Origin: Physcomitrium patens
Lineage: Eukaryota > Streptophyta > Bryopsida > Funariales > Funariaceae
DNA: 64,000 bases
Assembly (NCBI RefSeq): GCF_000002425.4
Contig: NC_037253.1
Span: 17,376,407 to 17,440,406, forward strand
Direction of reading: 5' to 3'
How positions within the stretch are numbered: the stretch's first letter is position 1; every line of letters begins with the position of its first letter. The notes under the pieces were generated by a model. The model did no database searches, was not told the DNA's origin, and saw nothing but the letters and a program-made list of their open reading frames with translations. Made by a program: the position numbers and the translations under genes. Of this stretch, positions 6,166 to 52,181 are shown in pieces.

Positions 6166-8119
6166 GCTACCACCAGTTTTGTCAAATGGGTGCAATTGTA
6201 GTTATAATGTCATGAGTTATATGCGGTTCAGATTAATGGGACCATTACTAAAGATATCTAGATTTCTATAGATGATATAGATTCCTATTGGAATATAATG
6301 TCATTTTAAATCTTGTGGTTAGACCATTGCATAGGAATCTATATAATCTATAAGAATTAATGTTAAGAAGGCAAGATGTTTGAATTATCTAATTGAGCAT
6401 GACATTATATTCAAAATATTTGTACTTTGTCCAAAATGTTTTCTTCCATTAATCTCCTTCTTTAATCTGCACCAAATTGTACACTATATATAAATCTATT
6501 CTAGTGTAGATCCTAGCTTGACTGAATTGCTTTAAAAGCTTTGATATCAGTGGTAATAGATAAAGATTCTTCAGGATTATTTTATTGAGGTCATAATAAT
6601 CAATACACATTTGCAAAGATCCATCTTTTTTCTTCACAAAAACTATTGGTCCATTTGCTGGAGATTCACAATACCAAATAAAGTTCTTTGCAAGATTTTG
6701 ATCAATATAATCCTTCAATGCCAAAAGTTTATTTTGTGATAGGTTGTAGATTGAGCTAAACGGTGGTTGAGCCTCTTTGAAGATCAATGGTACTAGGATA
6801 GCTACTAGCGAGCTTACTTCTTCATAAGTTGGAGTTGCATAAATAACAAATGGCATTTTTTTCTTAGTAGTCTTCATAAAAGCCCTTGCTTAAAGGAATA
6901 AATAAATTTGAGGTATTGGAATGTCCAACTACATGGTCTCTATTAAAGTTGGATCTCTTTATTTTCCTAAAAAATTGCAATCTTAATCCTATTTGTACAT
7001 TGTTTCTTTGGACAGTTCTCAAATTTATGACCTTCTTCATTACAATACAAGTATAGACCTTATTCAAATTGACACTTCTTCTCTTCTATTATAAGAGGTT
7101 TAAACTATATTGCATCAATTTACATATCTTCAACTTTGGAATCTAAAAGTATTGTATTTATTGAAATAATAGAGTACAAATTTTTAGTATGTTGCTTTAT
7201 CAAAGTCGAAAAGTATTGATTTTGATATTATTAAAATAATCAATAATTATTTTTTACAGCTTGGTTAATAGTCTCATTGAGTGTTTGAGGATCACATAAT
7301 GATAGTAATAGGTCTTTGACATCATCATTTAATCTCCAATAGAATTGGTTCATAAAAGCTTTTTCATCCCAATTGATGTGACAAACCAATTACTTAAAAT
7401 CAAATACATAAACTTATACAAAGCATGACCTTTGATGTAATGAGCAAATTTTTATTGATATCCATCAAGCCTTATCATATTTTCTAAATGCCTCTACAAA
7501 TACTTCTAAAAAAGTCTTTAAAATTATTCAAGATTAGAGTTCTTTTTTCAAATAAAAGATCAAACCAAAATAAGGCTTATCTTGAGATCAAGGTTCCAAC
7601 TAAATCAACTCACTATTCTTTTGTTGGATAGCACTCAAGTTGTAGAAAAGTTACTAATCAAATTTTATTAATAAATCTTTAAAACTTAGAATGTGTATCA
7701 TCAAAAAAATTTGAAAGACTAATTTGAGGCTCTTTATGTTGTTGAATAAGTGAGTTTTTTTGTCGAAATACAAGTGCCACCACTTCCTTGGATGTAAAAG
7801 CTTGAAAAAGTGGTTGTATTACAGGTTAAACTATTCTAGATCTTATATCACTATAAAATCTTACAAAACATCTTTTTATTTTAGTAGTTCTATGAGATAA
7901 AGTATTGAACATGTTCATAATACTATCTAATTAGGATTTAGAAGATTTAACCATATTAATATCTTGACTTCTAGCTATTTTAAAAGAAAAAAATTAAACA
8001 ATACTAATTTAATTTAAAGAAGAAATCTTGCAACCTCTAAAACATTGAAATGACTTCAAGAAGAGAAATAATCCAATCTTTATTAAAAAAGATCAAGCTT
8101 TAGTATTGATAAGAAAGTT

Positions 8120-8130
8120 AGTCTTGACAA
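8120..8130 (-). promoter_or_regulatory. R5 candidate self-priming primer-binding site
   Basis: TTGTCAAGACT lies 2 nt downstream of the inferred LTR end. Its complement, AGTCTTGACAA, matches 8 of 11 positions of the LTR segment at 8284-8274, which starts 33 nt from the beginning of the TATA box. Spacing and length are the same as in R1, R2, R3 and R8. Confidence 0.45.
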
Positions 8131-8132
8131 AA

Positions 8133-8620
8133 TGTCATGGATATACTATACAAAAGATCAAATAAGAAATTGAATAAAAAAAATTTCAATAAAAAAGCTA
8201 GTAAGAACTTGATGAAATCAAATAAGTACAATATCAACACCAAGAGAGATGAGCTAGAGCTCCAAGAGATGTGTTGTTGAGATTGAAGATCCCCTCACCC
8301 TTAACTCCAATATATATTAGGTATTAAAAAGCTTTTTTAGAAATTTTAATGTTGCTTAAGAACAAAGCAACCTTAGAAGGGTTCTCGAAAAGTTTTCATT
8401 TTACTTGAAGACAAAAACAATCCTAGAAAGCTTCTTAGATAGCTTCCTTAATCATCTTAGAAATTTTTAGAATCTATTGGAATTTTTTGAAAACCTTCTA
8501 AATCTTTTTAAATATTTAAAGGAACTTTTTAAAATCTTCTATTAAAGTATTTTTAAAATATTTAAAAATTTGATAGATTATTTTAAAAATATTCCTAAAA
8601 TCTTTTGATTGTTTATAACA
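8133..8620 (-). repeat. R5 5' LTR (about 488 bp)
   Basis: Begins TGTTATAAAC and ends ATGACA when read on the minus strand, so it has TG...CA ends. A TATA-like box lies near 8320-8313. The boundary is inferred from the TG/CA ends and the leader that follows; no second LTR is available to confirm it. Confidence 0.5.
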
Positions 8621-23486: not shown

Positions 23487-24037
23487 TGTCACGGCCATAA
23501 TCATGTAAGCTAATAATTACATATAGAAATAGGTAGAAGTAAGTAAAAGTAGATAAAAGTAAGTTAATTCTATAATATTTAATATAAAAGCTTCTAGAAA
23601 CTTCCTAGACGCTGCTTTGACTTCATAGGTGTCTTTAATTGACTTTTTGGATTAGAAACGTGGTCAACAAGTTGGCCATGTGCCACACATGTTGTTAGCT
23701 TGAAGATCAAGCTAACTATGTGGCCCACACGTAGAAAAACTTGCCTTGTAAGTCAAGGCATGTGTCCTACAAAGTCAACACATATTGGAGGTCCTATAGA
23801 ACGTCGCCACGTAGCCCCTAGTTAGATAGTATATATAGAGACAAGAGTGAAGGCTTCTTCACTCTTGTCAACTCCTTTCTTGCTTCTAGTCTAGGTTCAA
23901 GAGTCTTTAGTTTCTTGTCTTGTGGCAATAGCCATTCCAGTTTCCTTTTAATATACCTACTTGTTTATATTTTGACTTATTATATCGAGATAGCCTTTTG
24001 GTGTATATTTTCTCTCATCGAGTCTTTGTCCTTGACA
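23487..24037 (+). repeat. R1 5' LTR (551 bp)
   Basis: TGTCACGGCC...CTTGACA, preceded by target duplication GGATA. It contains a TATA box (23830-23837), a 13-bp hairpin (23840-23869) and the predicted transcription start at 23861. U3 is then about 374 nt and R plus U5 about 177 nt. Confidence 0.97.
23830..23871 (+). promoter_or_regulatory. R1 LTR core promoter: TATA box, hairpin and predicted start
   Basis: TATATATA at 23830-23837. The A of ACTCTTGTCAA (23861-23871) is the 32nd nucleotide counted from the first T, in a CA context typical of plant start sites. GACAAGAGTGAAG (23840-23852) and CTTCACTCTTGTC (23857-23869) form a perfect 13-bp stem with loop GCTT. The start position is inferred from spacing and was not mapped. 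Confidence 0.65.
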
Positions 24038-24069
24038 GATTGACAAGAATACACTTACAATATCAGAGC
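24038..24069 (+). promoter_or_regulatory. R1 priming region: candidate self-priming site plus tRNA-Met-like stretch
   Basis: After a 2-nt gap, 24040-24050 is complementary to 10 of 11 nt of the predicted transcript 5' end (ACTCTTGTCAA at 23861-23871). Further on, TATCAGAGC (24061-24069) matches 9 nt of the usual plant initiator-tRNA-Met primer-binding sequence. It lacks the TGG that pairs with the tRNA CCA end, and it sits 23 nt from the LTR. The first feature looks like the real primer site; the second may be a vestige or chance. Confidence 0.55.
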
Positions 24070-25092: not shown

Positions 25093-25645
25093 TGTCAAGG
25101 ATAAGAACTCGATGAAAGCTAAAGAGTAAGTGAGACTTTTCTCAAAAAAGAAATAGGACAAAATAGAAATATGTATATTAAGAAAGAAACTGGAATGGCT
25201 ATTGCCAAAATACAAGAAAACTAGAGACCCTTGAAACTAGACTAGAAGCAAGAAAGGAGTTGACAAGAGTGAAGAAGCCTTCACTCTTGTCTCTATATAT
25301 ACTATCTAACTAGGGGCTACGTGGCGACGTTCTATAGGACCTCCAATATGTGTTGACTTTGTAGGACACATGCCTTGACTTACAAGGCAAGTTTTCCTAC
25401 GTGTGGGCCACATAGTTAGCTTGATCTTCAAGCTAACAACATGTGTGGCACATGGCCAACTTGTTGACCACGTTTCTAATCCAAAAAGTCAATTAAAGAC
25501 ACCTATGAAGTCAAAGCAGCGTCTAGGAAGTTTCTAGGAAGCTTCTATATTAAATATTATACAATTAACTTACTTTTATCTACTTTTACTTACTTCTACC
25601 TATTTCTATATGTAATTATTAGCTTATATGATTATGGCCGTGACA
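25093..25645 (-). repeat. R2 3' LTR (553 bp)
   Basis: Reverse-orientation LTR starting TGTCAAGG on the plus strand and ending CCGTGACA. It is adjacent to target duplication CTGAG on the left and to the polypurine tract on the right. Confidence 0.97.
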
Positions 25646-26227: not shown

Positions 26228-29200
26228 TTAATGAAAAACTTTGACTTTAGCTGATGCATTTCCTAGATTCCTGGATGGCTCCCATGTGCGCTCACTAATA
26301 TCATATCCGCGCCAATGAACAAGATATTCCAGCTTATTTCGGCGCCGCCTTGAGTCTAATATCTCTTCCACCTCAAATTCTTCATTATTATCTACTTCTA
26401 TAGGAGGCGGTGGCATTTGTCTTCTTCCTTGTATATCCACTGTCTTATATGGTTCAAGAAGAGACATGTGGAATACAGGATGGATCTTCATTGACTCCGG
26501 TAGATGTAACCGATATGCAACTGGGTTGATCTGTTCAGAAACAGAAAAGGGGCCAAGCCTACGATAGTCCAATTTGTCATAAGGTCGAGTGGTCTTGATA
26601 TTGCGACGAAGTAGCCATACCTTATCACCCACGTTGAGTTGTGGTTGCTCTTTACGATATACATCTGCATTTATCTTTTGTCGTTCTTGAGCTTTCTTCA
26701 ACTGCGCCTTCATTATTGCATGTAACTCTGACAACCGATTTGCCATGTCTTCTGCTGCAGGATTATCAACTTTTGAAAAATCAAAAGTATCAAGTCGTGG
26801 ATGATAGCCATAATTGGCAAAGAAAGGTGTTTGTTGCGTGGAAGAACGTACTGTATTATTATAAGCAAACTCTGCCAATGGCAGAAGGATTGTCCAATCA
26901 TCTTGTTGGTAGTCGATGGTACACCTTAAATACTGTTCCAAGACTTGGTTTACGCGCTCTGTTTGTCCATCAGTTTGAGGATGGAAAGCCGAAGATAGCT
27001 TTATGTCTACTTTTAAAATCTTGAAAAGGGTCCTCCAGAATCTTGATACAAATTGAGTTCCCCTATCTGATATGATATCTTTAGGTAATCCATGATAGCG
27101 ATAGATATTATCAATGAAAAGCTTAGCTGTTTCTTCACCTGTGATAGATTTTGTACATGGCATAAAATGTGCCATCTTGGTGAAACGATCTACTATCACA
27201 AATATAGAATCATAAGATCTTGAGTTTGGAAGATCTGTGATGAAATCCATAGAAACAGAAGACCATGGTTGTTCTGGTATAGGTAATGGCTGAAGAAGTC
27301 CGTAAGGTCGATGTCGAGGAATTTTTGATCTTGAACAAATATCACATGATTGTACAAAGTCTTTGACTAACTTCCACATTTGTGGCCACCAAAAATCTCT
27401 TGATATGAGTTCCAGAGTCTTATTATATCCAAAGTGACCTGCTGCTGGAAAGTCATGACGTGCTTGAAGAACACGCAAACGTGCTTTTCCTTCTCGAACA
27501 TATAGGCGTCCTTCAAAATATAATAGATTATTCTTGAACTCGAACTTAGAAGAATCATGAGACTTGGAAGAATTATTCTCGATATCATAAACAAGAGGGT
27601 CTGAGGACATACTGGACTGGATTTGCTTGAGAAAAGTTGAATCAACAGTCAGTGTTGATTTCATTGCTCGGAGATGAAATTGCTCCGGTTTCAAGAGGAC
27701 CGTTCTTTGTTGCTCAAAAGCTGCATCTCCTTCTTTTGGTGCAAAATAAGAACGTCTAGACAGGGCATCGGACAAACCTTGTTGTTTTCCTGGCCGATAA
27801 GTGATAATGAACTCAAATCTTGACAAAGACATACTCCAACGAGCTTGACGACGATTCAACACGCGTGCTGACATGAAATACTCGAGGTTCTTGTGATCTG
27901 TATACACAGTGACTGGACTAGAAGCACCTTCTAGATAATGATGCCATTCTTGAAAGGAATCCACGATTGCAAGAAGTTCTTTATCGTGGATCTCATAATT
28001 GATCTCGGCTGCTGAGAATTTTCTTGAATGAAAAGCTATCGGATGAAGTTTGTCATATGTTCCCATTTGTGATAAAACTGCACCCAAGGCAAAATCCGAT
28101 GCGTCTGTTTCCATAAAAAATGCCTTGGAAAAGTCAACACGATATAAGACTGGTGCAGAGACAAACGATGTCTTCAAGGCTTCAAATGCTGCTTCCGCTT
28201 CTTGATTCCATTGGAATTTATCTTTACTAGTCAAGCGTGTAAGTGGAGCTGCAACTCGTGAGAAGTCTTTGATGAAGATCCGATAGTAATTGGCAAATCC
28301 CAAGAAACATTGGACATCTCTTACAGTCTTTGGAATCTTCCAATCCATGATTGTTTGGACTTTCTTAGAATCCATCATAAGACCATCATTTGAAATGATG
28401 TATCCTAAAAAGTCAACTTGAGTAGTGTGAAATACACACTTTTCCATCTTGGCGTACAATCCTGCATCTCTAAGTTTTTGTAATACTTGACGAACATGTA
28501 TTTCATGTTCTTCAACATTCTTAGAATAAATCAGGATATTGTCTAGGTAGCAGACGACAAAATTGTCTAAGAATTCACGAAATACATCATTCATGAGATA
28601 TTGAAAAGCAGCTGGTGCATTCGTGAGTCCAAAAGGCATGACATTGTATTCAAAGTGTCCGTACCTGGTTCGAAACGCAGTCTTCCATTCATCTCCTTCT
28701 TTGATCCGTACTAGATTATATGCTCCTCTTAGATCTATTTTTGTATAGATCTTAGCTTGATTTAACTGGTCAAGGAGTCCTGATATCAAAGGTAATGGAT
28801 ACCTGTTCTTAATTGTGATCTTGTTGAGTCCTCGATAGTCAACACACATTCGTAAAGATCCATCTTTTTTCTTTACGAATAAAATTGGAGCTCCTGCTGG
28901 AGATTTTGAATGGCGTATGAAATTCTTCGCTAAATTCTCGTCAATATATGTCTTGAGTTCAGCCAACTCATCTTGCGATAAACTGTAAATTGGTCCAAAT
29001 GGTGGCTGAGTTCCTTCCTTGAGATCGATTGAACAATCGTATGGGCGATGCTCAGGAAGAATATCTGCATTCTTTTTCTCAAAAACGTCTTGATAATCTT
29101 GATATTGACTTGGAATGCCACTTGAAGTCTTTACGCTTTCAGAAATAGGTGCAGCATAAATAGCAAAAGTTGATCCTTCTTTTGCTGCGTGTATAAATGC

Positions 29201-29692
29201 TTTTGCACCTATAAGTGCGGGTTTTACTATACTAGACTCATGGTTTTTTACTTGATTAATAGAACTGTTACTAATGCTCCGAGGAAAATCAAGTTTACGA
29301 GAAATCCAATCTATTCGAGGATTATACTTTTCTAACCATGATAAGCCTAAAATTATTGGATTAGAGGGAGATCTAATTATATTAAAAATTATGCAACTAC
29401 TATGACCATTTATTACTACATCTACAGGAAGTGTTTCGTGAGTTACATCTCCAGAAGACAACGGACGACCATCTATGACTTCTACGTGTACAGGTTTAGT
29501 TTTTTGTATTAATGATATTCTATGACATCTAGCAAATTCTTCATCTAAAAAACAAGCTGAGGCTCCTGAATTTATCAAGGCAGAGGCTTTGTAATTATTA
29601 GGTCCTAAACGCACATCTATTATAAAACAAGGAGATGGTTCTGAGGAGAGGATAGGACCTTCATTAGAAGTTGTACAAGATTCCAGCCGCAC
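26228..29692 (-). CDS. R2 pol polyprotein (protease, RT, RNase H, integrase, chromodomain)
   Basis: 1154 residues in one open frame. Order: aspartic-protease region (about 30-130), reverse transcriptase (about 235-420: [32 protein letters not shown]), RNase H (about 520-620: FFMETDASDFALGAVLSQ, VYTDHKNLEYF), integrase zinc finger (about 740-785, HHCC pattern), integrase core (about 810-960: MDFITDLP, SAFHPQTDGQTERVNQ), GPY/F-like module (about 1030-1065: RRLGPFSVSEQIN) and C-terminal chromodomain (about 1105-1150: EVEEILDSRRRRNKLEYLVHW). This order and the chromodomain place it among the chromoviruses of Ty3/gypsy. The length is normal for the family. It looks whole. Confidence 0.95.
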   Translation of the reverse strand: MRLESCTTSNEGPILSSEPSPCFIIDVRLGPNNYKASALINSGASACFLDEEFARCHRISLIQKTKPVHVEVIDGRPLSSGDVTHETLPVDVVINGHSSCIIFNIIRSPSNPIILGLSWLEKYNPRIDWISRKLDFPRSISNSSINQVKNHESSIVKPALIGAKAFIHAAKEGSTFAIYAAPISESVKTSSGIPSQYQDYQDVFEKKNADILPEHRPYDCSIDLKEGTQPPFGPIYSLSQDELAELKTYIDENLAKNFIRHSKSPAGAPILFVKKKDGSLRMCVDYRGLNKITIKNRYPLPLISGLLDQLNQAKIYTKIDLRGAYNLVRIKEGDEWKTAFRTRYGHFEYNVMPFGLTNAPAAFQYLMNDVFREFLDNFVVCYLDNILIYSKNVEEHEIHVRQVLQKLRDAGLYAKMEKCVFHTTQVDFLGYIISNDGLMMDSKKVQTIMDWKIPKTVRDVQCFLGFANYYRIFIKDFSRVAAPLTRLTSKDKFQWNQEAEAAFEALKTSFVSAPVLYRVDFSKAFFMETDASDFALGAVLSQMGTYDKLHPIAFHSRKFSAAEINYEIHDKELLAIVDSFQEWHHYLEGASSPVTVYTDHKNLEYFMSARVLNRRQARWSMSLSRFEFIITYRPGKQQGLSDALSRRSYFAPKEGDAAFEQQRTVLLKPEQFHLRAMKSTLTVDSTFLKQIQSSMSSDPLVYDIENNSSKSHDSSKFEFKNNLLYFEGRLYVREGKARLRVLQARHDFPAAGHFGYNKTLELISRDFWWPQMWKLVKDFVQSCDICSRSKIPRHRPYGLLQPLPIPEQPWSSVSMDFITDLPNSRSYDSIFVIVDRFTKMAHFMPCTKSITGEETAKLFIDNIYRYHGLPKDIISDRGTQFVSRFWRTLFKILKVDIKLSSAFHPQTDGQTERVNQVLEQYLRCTIDYQQDDWTILLPLAEFAYNNTVRSSTQQTPFFANYGYHPRLDTFDFSKVDNPAAEDMANRLSELHAIMKAQLKKAQERQKINADVYRKEQPQLNVGDKVWLLRRNIKTTRPYDKLDYRRLGPFSVSEQINPVAYRLHLPESMKIHPVFHMSLLEPYKTVDIQGRRQMPPPPIEVDNNEEFEVEEILDSRRRRNKLEYLVHWRGYDISERTWEPSRNLGNASAKVKVFH

Positions 29693-29697
29693 GGTCC

Positions 29698-30705
29698 CTA
29701 TTGTAGCTGGACGTACTCGTTTTCCGACATACTGTCTTCTTTGACAGCCGTACTCCTTATTTTGTAGTTACGTCGCTTCTTTGGACAATGTTGAGCAGTG
29801 TGCTTAGGTTCTCCACAATATAAGCACAATCCTTCTTGTCGACGACGAGACTTTTCTTGCTCAGTAAGAGGTTTGAAACGTACCGCATCAATTTGCATAT
29901 CCTCTACTTCTGAAGGTATGTGTTGAGGAGACGTCGGTGTTGCCATTGAATTGTAGTAACGTTGAGGCCCACTTGTGCGACTCTCGGATCGAAATTCAAA
30001 AAGTCGATTGTCGCACTTCACAGCAAAGTCAATTGCTTGACTCAATGTTTGAGGATCAGGTAAATTAAGCATCAATTTCTTTACCTCATATTGTAATCCG
30101 TAGAGAAATTGACTCACAAGTGCGGCATCATCCCACTTGATATCAGTTGCAAGTTGTCGAAATTGCGAAGCATATAATATTACTGATCGATTGCCTTGTT
30201 GCAAAATACGGATCTTCTTGATTGCAACACGAATTGCATCATGTTCTCCAAACATGGATCGAAACTCCGCCAAAAAAGCCTCCAGATTATCCAATATTGG
30301 ATCTCGTCGTTCAAGAAAAGATGAAAACCATGACAATGCTGAACCTGAAAGAAGTGTACCAATGAATCTAACTTGTGACCCTGGAGTTGGATAGCTCTGG
30401 GGTTGAAGTTCAATCACTAGTTGGACCTGATTGATGAATCCTCGAAACTTGGATCTGGTACCATCAAACTTCTCGGGCAAGGCAACTCTCGGTTCTCTAA
30501 CACTCGAAGGGTGTTCCATTCTGGGAGAAGGGACATGGTTTGGTGCAGATGTTGAAGCAGCCCCAATCATCTCTATATCTTCACTTCCTACCATTCTTGT
30601 TGCTCCTTGTGGTGGTAAATTGAGTTGATGCATCGCAAGCATTAACTCCCTCAATTGTTCTTGCATCTGTGCCATTGTACTCTTCATTTCAACAAGCTCT
30701 GCCAT
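29698..30705 (-). CDS. R2 gag protein
   Basis: 335 residues. A coiled, Met/Gln-rich start (MAELVEMKSTMAQMQEQLRE) is followed by a retrotransposon-gag capsid region (about 75-225: PEKFDGTRSKFRGFINQV, LSGSALSWFSSFLERRDP) and a CCHC zinc knuckle near the C-terminus (CLYCGEPKHTAQHC). It forms the particle and binds genomic RNA in this family. It ends 6 nt before the pol frame opens, in another frame. It looks whole. Confidence 0.92.
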   Translation of the reverse strand: MAELVEMKSTMAQMQEQLRELMLAMHQLNLPPQGATRMVGSEDIEMIGAASTSAPNHVPSPRMEHPSSVREPRVALPEKFDGTRSKFRGFINQVQLVIELQPQSYPTPGSQVRFIGTLLSGSALSWFSSFLERRDPILDNLEAFLAEFRSMFGEHDAIRVAIKKIRILQQGNRSVILYASQFRQLATDIKWDDAALVSQFLYGLQYEVKKLMLNLPDPQTLSQAIDFAVKCDNRLFEFRSESRTSGPQRYYNSMATPTSPQHIPSEVEDMQIDAVRFKPLTEQEKSRRRQEGLCLYCGEPKHTAQHCPKKRRNYKIRSTAVKEDSMSENEYVQLQ

Positions 30706-30886: not shown

Positions 30887-30918
30887 GCTCTGATATTGTA
30901 AGTGTACTCTTGTCAATC
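30887..30918 (-). promoter_or_regulatory. R2 priming region: candidate self-priming site plus tRNA-Met-like stretch
   Basis: TTGACAAGAGT (30916-30906, minus strand) starts 2 nt after the LTR end and is complementary over all 11 nt to ACTCTTGTCAA at 31096-31086, the predicted transcript 5' end. TATCAGAGC (30895-30887) resembles a tRNA-Met primer site without the TGG, more than 20 nt from the LTR. Confidence 0.6.
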
Positions 30919-31471
30919 TGTCAAGGACAAGAACTCGATGAAAGCTAAAGAGTAAGTGAGACTTTTCTCAAAAAAGAAATAGGACAAAATAGAAATATAT
31001 ATATTAAGAAAGAAACTGGAATGGCTATTGCCAAAATACAAGAAAACTAGAGACCCTTGAAACTAGACTAGAAGCAAGAAAGGAGTTGACAAGAGTGAAG
31101 AAGCCTTCACTCTTGTCTCTATATATACTATCTAACTAGGGGCTACGTGGCGACGTTCTATAGGACCTCCAATATGTGTTGACTTTGTAGGACACATGCC
31201 TTGACTTACAAGGCAAGTTTTCCTACGTGTGGGCTACATAGTTAGCTTGATCTTCAAGCTAACAACATGTGTGGCACATGGCCAACTTGTTGACCACGTT
31301 TCTAATCCAAAAAGTCAATTAAAGACACCTATGAAGTCAAAGCAGCGTCTAGGAAGTTTCTAGGAAGCTTCTATATTAAATATTATACAATTAACTTACT
31401 TTTATCTACTTTTACTTACTTCTACCTATTTCTATATGTAATTATTAGCTTATATGATTATGGCCGTGACA
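30919..31471 (-). repeat. R2 5' LTR (553 bp)
   Basis: Nearly identical to the 3' LTR at 25093-25645. TATA box at 31127-31120, hairpin arms at 31117-31105 and 31100-31088, predicted start at 31096. Target duplication CTGAG follows at 31472. Confidence 0.97.
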
Positions 31472-38576: not shown

Positions 38577-40108
38577 ATGGGTAAGGAGAAGGTGCACATC
38601 AATATCGTGGTCATCGGCCATGTCGACTCTGGCAAGTCGACGACCACTGGGCACCTCATCTACAAGTTGGGAGGTATCGACAAGCGTGTGATCGAGCGTT
38701 TCGAGAAGGAGGCGGCGGAGATGAACAAGCGTTCGTTCAAGTATGCGTGGGTGCTGGACAAGCTGAAGGCAGAGCGCGAGCGTGGTATCACGATTGATAT
38801 TGCGCTGTGGAAGTTCGAGACCATGAAGTACTACTGCACTGTGATCGACGCGCCCGGACATCGCGATTTCATCAAGAACATGATCACGGGAACGTCGCAG
38901 GCAGACTGCGCTGTGCTGATCATCGACTCGACGACGGGAGGGTTCGAGGCCGGTATCTCGAAGGATGGGCAGACGCGTGAGCACGCACTGCTGGCGTTCA
39001 CTTTGGGAGTGAAGCAGATGATTTGCTGCTGCAACAAGGTGAGTTGAGAAGACACGGCACAGTGTATATTTGTATGGGGTCAGTGAGACTGGATTGGGTC
39101 TGAGCACGGTGTCTGTGAGAGCCGTGAGGTGTCACGGCACAATGAGATAAAGTGGTGATTTTAGGAGTAGGGTGTATGGGTATTGGTGTATTTGAGGGCT
39201 GATGTTGGACTATGTGTGGATGGTAGATGGACGCGACCACCCCGAAGTACAGCAAGGCCCGATATGAGGAGATCGTGAAGGAGGTGTCGGCGTACCTGAA
39301 GAAGGTGGGGTACAACCCGGAGAAGGTTCCGTTCGTGCCGATCTCAGGGTTCGAGGGCGACAACATGATCGAGAGGTCGACGAACCTGGACTGGTACAAG
39401 GGCCCGACTCTGTTGGAGGCGTTGGACAACGTGTCAGAGCCGAAGCGGCCATCTGACAAGCCTCTGAGGCTGCCGCTTCAGGACGTGTACAAGATTGGAG
39501 GCATCGGAACTGTGCCAGTGGGACGGGTGGAGACAGGAATCATCAGGCCAGGTATGTTGGTGTGCTTCGCACCGACGGGACTGACGACTGAGGTGAAGTC
39601 GGTGGAGATGCATCACGAGTCGATGCCTGAGGCGCACCCAGGTGACAACGTCGGGTTCAACGTGAAGAACGTGGCGGTGAAGGACCTGAAGAGAGGGTAC
39701 GTGGCCTCAGACTCGAAGAACGACCCTGCCAAGGAGGCAGCCAACTTCACGGCGCAGGTTATCATCATGAACCACCCGGGACAGATCGGGAACGGTTACG
39801 CACCAGTGCTGGATTGCCACACGTCGCACATTGCGGTGAAGTTCGCGGAGATCTTGACGAAGGTGGACAGGCGATCGGGTAAGGAGCTGGAGAAGGAGCC
39901 GAAGTTTTTGAAGAACGGGGACGCAGGGTTCGTGAAGATGATTCCGACGAAGCCGATGACAGTGGAGACGTTCGCGGAGTACCCACCATTGGGACGTTTC
40001 GCGGTGCGTGATATGAGGCAGACGGTGGCTGTGGGTGTTATCAAGGCCGTAGAGAAGAAGGAACCCACCGGCGCCAAGGTGACGAAGGCCGCTGCGAAGA
40101 AGAAGTGA
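38577..40108 (+). CDS. EF1A: Translation elongation factor 1-alpha (eEF1A)
   Basis: Exons 38577-39038 and 39227-40108, joined by a GT/AG intron after N153-K154. They give 447 residues, the standard plant length. It delivers aminoacyl-tRNA to the ribosomal A site as a GTPase in the cytosol. GTPase motifs: GHVDSGKS (14-21), ERGITID (68-74), DAPGH (91-95), NKMD (153-156, split by the intron). Domains 2 and 3 follow and the protein ends in the usual [10 protein letters not shown]. The intron lies where plant EF-1alpha genes commonly have one. Codons end mostly in G or C, in contrast with the AT-rich surroundings, as expected for a highly expressed gene. No breaks. The start is fixed by the invariant MGKEK. 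Land plants usually have several near-identical copies; this is one. Confidence 0.98.
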
Positions 40109-43481: not shown

Positions 43482-44170
43482 AATGATTTTCTTGATATAA
43501 GATATGAATTTTATTGCTATGAATAATAAAAATTATAACATGACAAAAAATAAAAGTAATTTTTAAATAAATATAACTTATAATCTTATGAATGGATAGC
43601 TTTGGAATCGAAGCTTAATTGCTAGTTACACTTGATTGATAAATCTTTGAAATTTTGTTCTTGTACCACCAAACTTCTAAAGTAAGCAAATTTTTATTTT
43701 TTTAACAATAATAATAATGCTTGTAGGATGCTTTATCATAAGATTTTTTTATAGTATAGACCTAGATGTTTGTGTAGCTCGAATAGCTCTTTATCTTTAT
43801 TTTCAACCAATCTTAATATTGCTTGTGGCAATGAAGTAAGTTGATGCATAAAAAATGTTAACTCTTTAATTTATTCTTGCATTTGTATCATTACATCTTT
43901 TATCGTTGTAAAATATATTATTATTATATAATAGGAAAAAATGACATCTATTACTTATGATAAGAAGTTAAAAAGGATTATGAATAAAATAGAAATATTC
44001 TAAAAATAAAATAGAAATAGAAGTAGATAATCTACAACCTCTAATATACTTATATCTAATGAAGAAAAATAGATAATCTATTTTAAATTAAGAAAAATAA
44101 AACTCTAATCTTATAAGTGTATTCTTATCAATATATTAAGGATAAGAACTTAAAGAATGTAAATAAATAA

Positions 44171-44220
<50 letters not shown>

Positions 44221-44560
44221 ATATTTTCAAGAAGAAATTAGAATGGCCATTATCAAAAATAAAAAAAACTAAAGACTCTTGAAACTAGACTAGAAGCAAT
44301 GACAGAGTTGATAAGACTGAAGAAGATCTCACTTTTAACTCTGTATATAATATCTACTAAAGAATTACTTAATAACACCTTATAAGCTACCTGACATATT
44401 TTTAATTTACAAGGCATGTGTTATAGATATATAAAGAATATTCTAAAATCTTAAAAAATATTCTATATTATAAAATATTTTTCTAAAATATTATAAAAAC
44501 TTGTTAGAAGTATATAGTGTACAAATTAGAAACTAAACTATATTAAATGGCATCTTAAAA
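41950..44560 (-). mobile_element. R7: very old, broken Ty3/gypsy element
   Basis: Minus strand. Nucleotide similarity to R2 is visible in the reverse-transcriptase start (about 42080-42330), protease (about 42500-42860), gag zinc knuckle (about 42990-43120), gag (about 43150-43900) and leader (about 44030-44125). A partial 5' LTR begins near 44139. A priming-type 11-mer (ATTCTTATCAA on the plus strand) ends 2 nt before the LTR, as in R1-R3. It is 3'-truncated and extremely AT-drifted, with very many breaks and (TA)n expansions at 43439-43480 and 44170-44217. Confidence 0.6.
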
Positions 44561-44597: not shown

Positions 44598-44861
44598 TGT
44601 AATTTAACTTGGACGGCAAGTCATTTTAAGAAGCTCCTTGAGAGGCTTCTTGAAACTTGGCCAATATGTCATCTACTAGCTTACATAAAAGACATGAGAG
44701 GCTTGGACTTCAAGCCTTAAGTCTCACAAGTAGTATAAATAGAGACATGATCGAGGCCTTCCTTAGTCTTATCAATTCATCTTTTGAATTTGTTCTTCTA
44801 ATGGCCTTTAGGCTCTTTTTTATATTAATCATTGGTTGTTGTCTTTTTAGTTATTTTTTAT

Positions 44862-45000: not shown

Positions 45001-45011
45001 TTGATTAGACT
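45001..45011 (+). promoter_or_regulatory. R8 candidate self-priming primer-binding site
   Basis: TTGATTAGACT lies 2 nt after the LTR end and is complementary to 10 of 11 nt of AGTCTTATCAA at 44765-44775. The pair differs in sequence from the R1/R2/R3 pair but keeps the same geometry. Confidence 0.55.
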
Positions 45012-51608: not shown

Positions 51609-51619
51609 ACTCTTGTCAA
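51609..51619 (-). promoter_or_regulatory. R3 candidate self-priming primer-binding site
   Basis: TTGACAAGAGT lies 2 nt from the LTR end and is identical to the R2 site although the rest of R3 has drifted strongly. Its complement ACTCTTGTCAA is present at the predicted start site in the R3 LTRs. Confidence 0.6.
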
Positions 51620-51621
51620 TC

Positions 51622-52181
51622 TGTCAAGGATATGAACTAGAAGATGATGAATAAACCAATGAAATTTGTATCAAAGAAAAAGTGACCAAATAGAAATAAA
51701 AAAATACGTATATTAAAAAAAAACTTGAATGGCTTATTGCCAAAAGACAAGAAAACCTAAGACTCTTGAAACTATACTAGAAGCAAGAAAAGAGTTGACA
51801 AGAGTGAAGAGGGCTTCACTCTTATCTCTATATATACTATTTAATTAAGAACTATGTGGTGATGTTCTATAGGACCTCCAATATGTGTTGACTTTGTAGG
51901 ACACATGCCTTGACTTATAAGACAAGTTTTTCTATATGTTTGCCACATAATTAGCTTGTTCTTCAAGCTACCAACATGTATGGTTTTATGATTAACTTGT
52001 TGATCAAGTTTTTAACCTAAAAGGTAATAATGGACACATATAAAGTCAAAGCAGTGTCTAATAAGCTTTTAGGAAGTTTTTTTTAGAAGATATTATAGAA
52101 TTAACTTATTTTTACCTACTTCTATCTATTTCTATTTATTTATATAGGTAATTATTTGCCTACATGTGTATATATGTAACA
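51622..52181 (-). repeat. R3 5' LTR (560 bp)
   Basis: TGTCAAGGAT...ATATGTAACA on the plus strand, followed by the target duplication ATAGA at 52182-52186. Confidence 0.93.

Follow-up and report, generated by a model that had tools for sequence, protein, structure and literature searches.

The self-primer of Tf1 is 11 nt long. In the available descriptions of Tf1/Tf2 and Tj1, elements of fission yeasts, a self-primer at the 5' end of the mRNA pairs with a site located beyond the 5' LTR, the elements carry a chromodomain and the LTR ends in CA (PMC4600332, PMC10085805); the elements reported here resemble them in these features, the self-primer being predicted and the chromodomain read in R2. 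The experimental work on self-priming cited in the available sources is that on fission yeast. For plants, self-priming is in print as a prediction. According to the available text of Neumann et al. 2019 (PMC6317226), most Gypsy elements of the Tcn1 clade in mosses and club-mosses are without tRNA-type sites and are predicted to be self-primed like Tf1/sushi, the criterion being a complementary stretch of 10 bp or more that starts 0-5 bp past the LTR, and the same prediction is made there for TAR copia elements. Elements of Physcomitrium patens (PpatensLTR) were grouped with Tcn1-like elements by Novikova et al. 2010 (PMC2864245), as far as the available text describes them. The main idea of self-priming in moss elements is therefore not new. 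The first-pass annotation of the DNA analysed here knew of no demonstrated case in a plant; this must be restricted by the predictions for the moss and club-moss clade and for TAR copia, while it agrees with our search of the open-licence literature, which returned no experimental demonstration of self-priming in a plant.

The elements described below share with those of the Tcn1 clade, as described, the predicted self-priming, the moss hosts and the chromodomain. The published prediction is described as using complementarity alone, whereas start-site spacing, register, differences between families, a hot spot at base 12 and a palindrome were added here; the tests of register, family differences, base 12 and palindrome possibly go beyond the predictions published so far, judging from the portions available. 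RLG1 of P. patens is described in PMC7466625 as the most abundant, recently mobile and expressed Gypsy family, with a chromodomain, and the main text of that source contains no match for 'PBS' or 'self-prim'. The family of element R2 fits this description, and we call it RLG1 on a likeness of description rather than of sequence. If such an abundant moss family self-primes, priming becomes open to study in a plant through RNA and DNA data.

Paired 11-mers in the nested Gypsy elements

The window, a 64-kb stretch of P. patens DNA, contains nested Gypsy elements, among which R2 (minus strand) appears from alignments to sit inside R1. The 5' LTR of R2 (TGT...ACA; 30919-31471, minus) and its 3' LTR (25093-25645, minus) are both 553 bp long and 99.5% identical, and identical 5-bp target duplications (CTGAG) flank the element on both sides, so that R2 is a real insertion. 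Its gag ORF (335 aa; 29698-30705, minus) matches PF03732 and PF19259. The pol ORF (1154 aa; 26228-29692, minus) encodes protease, RT, RNase H, integrase, a Tf2-1-like SH3 domain (PF24626, E 1.4e-20) and, in R2, where it was examined, a chromodomain (PF00385, residues 1106-1153 of 1154, E 1.3e-13). The R2 integrase thus carries the C-terminal chromodomain that is a feature of the self-primed Tf1/sushi chromoviruses, represented in plants by the Tcn1 clade. A search of IMG/VR with the pol protein gave no match. Elsewhere in the window, a 293-aa ORF (39227-40108, plus) resembles by eye the C-terminal portion of translation elongation factor 1-alpha.

The 11-mers were located and paired by script in R1, R2, R3, R5, R7 and R8. 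In R2, the primer binding site (PBS) TTGACAAGAGT (30906-30916, minus) begins 2 nt (GA) past the LTR end at 30919 and is the exact inverse of ACTCTTGTCAA (31086-31096, minus), the predicted self-primer and predicted mRNA nt 1-11, with 11/11 pairs. The A of ACTCTTGTCAA is the 32nd base counted from the first T (31127) of the TATA box TATATATA (31120-31127, minus), and thus lies 31 nt downstream of that T; the same TATA box, hairpin and 11-mer are present in the 3' LTR. The layout that the first-pass annotation gave for R2 was read exactly so, and its extension to R3 was borne out, the R3 PBS (51609-51619, minus) pairing at 11/11 with the predicted self-primer at 51795-51805 (minus). For R1 the layout was confirmed while the identity of the pair was not: the PBS at 24040-24050 (plus) reads TTGACAAGAAT and pairs at 10/11, with one mismatch, with the predicted self-primer at 23861-23871 (plus). 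The different pairs described for R8 and R5 were recovered as well. In R8, the predicted self-primer AGTCTTATCAA (44765-44775, plus) pairs at 10/11 with the PBS TTGATTAGACT (45001-45011, plus), and in R5 the PBS TTGTCAAGACT (8120-8130, minus) pairs at 8/11, with three mismatches, with the predicted self-primer at 8274-8284 (minus), whose A is in position 33 from the first T of the TATA box. R7, a decayed relative, has AGTCTTATCAA as its predicted self-primer (44308-44318, minus), which pairs at 10/11 with its PBS TTGATAAGAAT (44121-44131, minus). Inverted 11-mers therefore stand at fixed places, one starting 31-32 nt past the first T of the TATA box and one 2 nt past the LTR, this gap being read from the alignment of the LTR partners in R1-R3 and from the CA alone of the LTR end in R5 and R8.

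The site past the 5' LTR pairs with the LTR segment where the RNA is predicted to begin and, having no TGG, would not fit the 3' end of a tRNA. Its first bases are TTG in 18/18 young RLG1 copies and in 4 of 6 R8-type sites, the third base is G in 16 of 21 rows of the R5 family, and a TGG-type tRNA site adjoining the LTR was found in none of these 18 copies, 21 rows and 6 sites. If a tRNA primed in the usual way, it would have to use a degenerate site or one further downstream, such as TATCAGAGC, which begins 24 nt past the LTR and is present in 17 of the 18 young copies. TGG is absent both before TATCAGAGC and beside the LTR in R2, so that the CCA end of a tRNA could not sit there, and TATCAGAGC was not seen in R5 or R8; we regard tRNA priming as very unlikely. 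The scan for tRNA genes returned two in 22 loci and none in the window. In R2, TATCAGAGC lies in the leader past the PBS (30887-30895, minus), without TGG, and is possibly a relic or due to chance; its sequence is similar to the initiator-tRNA portion of primer sites common in plants.

The best reading of this anatomy is that R1-R3, R5, R7 and R8 are Tf1/sushi-type Gypsy elements in which the 5' end of the element's own mRNA serves as the primer of reverse transcription, with a probability of about 0.85. Transcription would start at the predicted A, as the TATA spacing of 31-32 nt suggests, and mRNA nt 1-11 would fold onto the site past the LTR. The RNase H of the element would cleave past nt 11, and the freed 3' end would open minus-strand synthesis, leaving the 2-nt gap. 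The plus strand would then copy the primer, so that the PBS would be rewritten in each round. The interpretation in the first-pass annotation is supported in part: self-priming, which it had proposed from complementarity and spacing, is strengthened by a single register, two matched differences between families, the base-12 hot spot and the lack of a TGG-type site.

Register and differences between families

Chance pairing was estimated by sampling within this AT-rich window, with the true elements kept in. The sample comprised 33884 positions that had a TATA box in range; pairing of 11/11 at 30-32 nt from that box was obtained at 1 of them, and at least 10/11, 9/11 and 8/11 at 46, 359 and 2022, respectively. 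The pairing of R2 and R3 is convincing against this background and that of R8 nearly so, whereas R5 alone is unconvincing because 8/11 is common by chance. A blind scan of 264 kb for pairing of at least 10/11 gave 23 matches, some of them counted twice, as compared to 13 in the reversed sequence, so that single 10/11 matches mean little, and the weight of the case for self-priming rests on copies and families rather than on single matches. A second blind scan of the 264 kb, for further self-primed families, gave 57 matches and the control 58. The blind-scan matches beyond simple repeats that look by eye like real elements are of RLG1 or R8 type. Genome-wide, the 11-mer was counted 10188 + 10291 times, compared with 64 + 59 times for the reversed control.

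Young RLG1 copies were selected through matches to gag, independently of the motif. Twenty were taken from 120 gag matches listed, and 18 were used, L069 and L080 being too short. Both 11-mers are unchanged and fully paired in 18/18 of these copies; in 17 they stand in one LTR setting, 179-189 nt apart, and the stretch of the remaining one (L083) contains more than one copy. The copies L001-L009 were excluded from the young-copy statistics because their primer and site may derive from different LTRs (the 5' LTR of L009 differs from the copy first used for pairing, and L006 and L007 overlap); they are still among the 26 rows of the register test and the 29 rows of the palindrome test.

The register test showed that the 26 RLG1 copies have a mean of 10.92 pairs in register and at most 5.08 in 12 shifts, while the R5 family (R5 and 20 further copies at 74-80% identity) has 8.81 of 11 pairs in register and at most 5.76 in 12 shifts. 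RLG1 pairing falls beyond the 11 positions, the fraction of paired copies being 0.12 at position 0 and 0.23 at position 12. For the 21 R5 copies these fractions are 0.05 and 0.48, and the value at position 12 is not below those at positions 5, 6 and 10, where pairing in this family is itself weak (0.52, 0.43 and 0.57).

Comparison of the families showed two differences that are matched on both sides, at PBS4 in R5 and at PBS10 in R8, which represent few events. The pair PBS4:primer8 is A:T in RLG1 and T:A in R5 (20/21 on each side), with A in 5 of 6 R8-type sites and T in 21/21 R8 primers. The pair PBS10:primer2 is G:C in RLG1, while the R8 family has C at PBS10 in 5 of 6 sites and G14/A7 at primer2 among 21 primers. 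The R8 family comprises 20 + 7 copies, of which six have sites readable by eye (R8, L029, L030, L091, L092 and L095); two copies with gapped alignments, L031 and L043, which have C and A at PBS10, respectively, were excluded. In R5, PBS10 is C13/T7/G1 and primer2 is A14/G7, so that the commonest bases, C (13/21) and A (14/21), are unpaired; R5 PBS10 and R5 PBS6 are both mixed and decide nothing on matched change. At PBS 5-6 and primer 6-7 of R5, the states CA, TG and TA predominate and CG occurs once, and the mismatches at PBS 5-6 show the pattern that CpG decay on either side would give. A genome search for copies with a change at PBS10 or primer2 gave 545 + 514 matches, and among the first 100 of these at least 11 copies altered on both sides of the pair were read, six of which pair and five of which do not.

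The first-pass annotation had suggested that the pairs co-evolve between subfamilies and had proposed a test of covariation against shuffled pairs. Matched change between families was observed at the two pair positions above; between copies within a family the shuffling test gave no covariation of primer and PBS (fractions of 0.71-0.82 for R5 and 0.21 for RLG1), as is expected of dead copies. Rewriting of the PBS, if true, would explain why primer and site match despite change between families.

A diverged RLG1 subfamily, RLG1b, was found at 596 genome places for its anchor CTTTCTAGTCCTTAGTCTT, and three of its copies among the matches listed appear to pair ATTCTTGTCAA with TTGACAAGAAT, which is perhaps a further matched pair. 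A second Gypsy family, G2 (L024, L089 and L090), is young, and an open frame of 1166 aa is present in many of its copies (71 matches scored). L089 is its one copy with a readable LTR end; the LTR is followed by AAAGTAGTGAACCCGACG, which is neither of TGG type nor self-complementary in place, and no self-complementary pair was found beside this LTR, the best match being 9/11 and out of place.

Variation at the base past the primer binding site

The base directly past the PBS (base 12; 30905, minus, in R2) is a hot spot of variation. It is A in 14, G in 3 and C in 1 of the 18 young RLG1 copies. With the 30 other bases of a 31-mer fixed, the genome-wide count gave 240 copies with another base at this position (G in 201, C in 37 and T in 2), while the same-base control, at position 14 two bases on, gave non-A in 9 copies (T6, C2 and G1); these numbers are copies and not independent events, with one control position counted. 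Of the 512 columns compared among the 18 young copies, 15 vary more than base 12; these are split 12:6 or 13:5, we take them to mark two types, and 14 of them lie upstream of the start site.

All 18 young copies have C at nt -1 of the predicted RNA, and a G at base 12 is therefore the expected trace of a primer copied one base longer, while a C is what copying of the cap guanosine would leave. The base past the PBS would then record where the RNA 5' end lay, G being a copy of nt -1 and C a copy of the cap. The hot spot is as expected if the PBS is rewritten in each round from the RNA 5' end, and is possibly a new observation. The main rival to rewriting is that several source elements differed at this base (A, G or C) and each spawned copies, so that base-12 variation was inherited and would have no bearing on rewriting. 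We give this close to an even chance, for the counts are of copies rather than events and the G and C states may represent few inherited lineages; it accounts less readily for the finding of G with both U3-arm forms among the 18 copies (L077 and L079 versus L088), for three states at one base beside a control of the same base that is nearly silent, and for the identity of the G as the complement of nt -1. In the 21 copies of the R5 family a clear link of base 12 to nt -1 was not seen. If the hot spot is the footprint of rewriting, priming and the choice of start site would become readable from genome sequence alone in self-primed families.

Palindrome over the predicted start site and folding of the leader

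A palindrome of 13 bp with a 4-nt loop lies over the U3/R border of R2 (31088-31117, minus; arms 31105-31117 and 31088-31100). In RLG1 and R8, primer bases 1-9 are inside the right arm of this 13-bp hairpin and the left arm is between the TATA box and the start site. The palindrome axis is the best one in 28/29 RLG1, 18/21 R8 and 10/21 R5 rows. Mean pairing on the axis is 0.92 in RLG1, 0.75 in R8 and 0.70 in R5, as compared to at most 0.69, 0.54 and 0.72, respectively, on other axes, so that the axis is not special in R5. Covariation of the two arms within families was not found, the shuffles reaching the observed value in 1518 (R5), 189 (R8) and 2000 (RLG1) of 2000. The palindrome of R2 has a folding energy of -19.8 kcal/mol, compared with -14.4 kcal/mol for the primer:PBS helix.

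The motif occurs in three copies (left arm, right arm and post-LTR site), which could instead represent a promoter palindrome acting at the DNA level together with a third copy due to chance or duplication, none of them taking part in priming. In favour of this, the palindrome is real and, at 13 bp, longer than its overlap with the primer. However, the RLG1 PBS corresponds to primer nt 1-11 together with the AA that is absent from the left arm, its pairing weakens at positions 0 and 12, its place is 2 nt from the end of the LTR, and between families the PBS tracks the primer at PBS4 and PBS10; a promoter palindrome by itself is thus very unlikely.

Under self-priming, the palindrome could distinguish the two primer copies of the mRNA. 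An RNA starting at the A would be without the left arm and its 5' primer copy would be free, while the copy in the 3' LTR would keep the left arm and would be locked and hidden from the PBS; the locked hairpin would keep the mRNA 3' end from serving as a primer. Such a palindrome at the U3/R border, with its potential to lock the 3' primer copy, is possibly new, and none is mentioned for Tf1/Tf2 and Tj1 in the available text of PMC4600332 and PMC10085805, with which the comparison is by description. We tentatively suggest, at somewhat less than even odds, that the PBS is a slave copy rewritten from the capped mRNA 5' end, that base 12 records the choice of start site and that the palindrome locks the 3' copy and would thereby restrict priming to a true 5' end.

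Eight RLG1 leaders were folded, and in 7 of them the minimum-energy structure contains the primer:PBS helix, that of R1 being without it; the R2 leader folds no better than its shuffles (z 0.10). Flanking duplexes like those of Tf1 reached z <= -2, against single-base shuffles, in 1 of 24 RLG1 leaders on the left and in 0 of 24 on the right, so the three-duplex 'pretzel' of Tf1 is unsupported in RLG1. The same threshold was reached in 0 of 5 R8 leaders, and in the R5 family in 1 of 21 leaders on the left and 12 of 21 on the right. In these 12 R5 leaders (e.g. 8060-8284, minus), the LTR downstream of the primer pairs with bases past the PBS, in a duplex that resembles one side duplex of the Tf1 pretzel.
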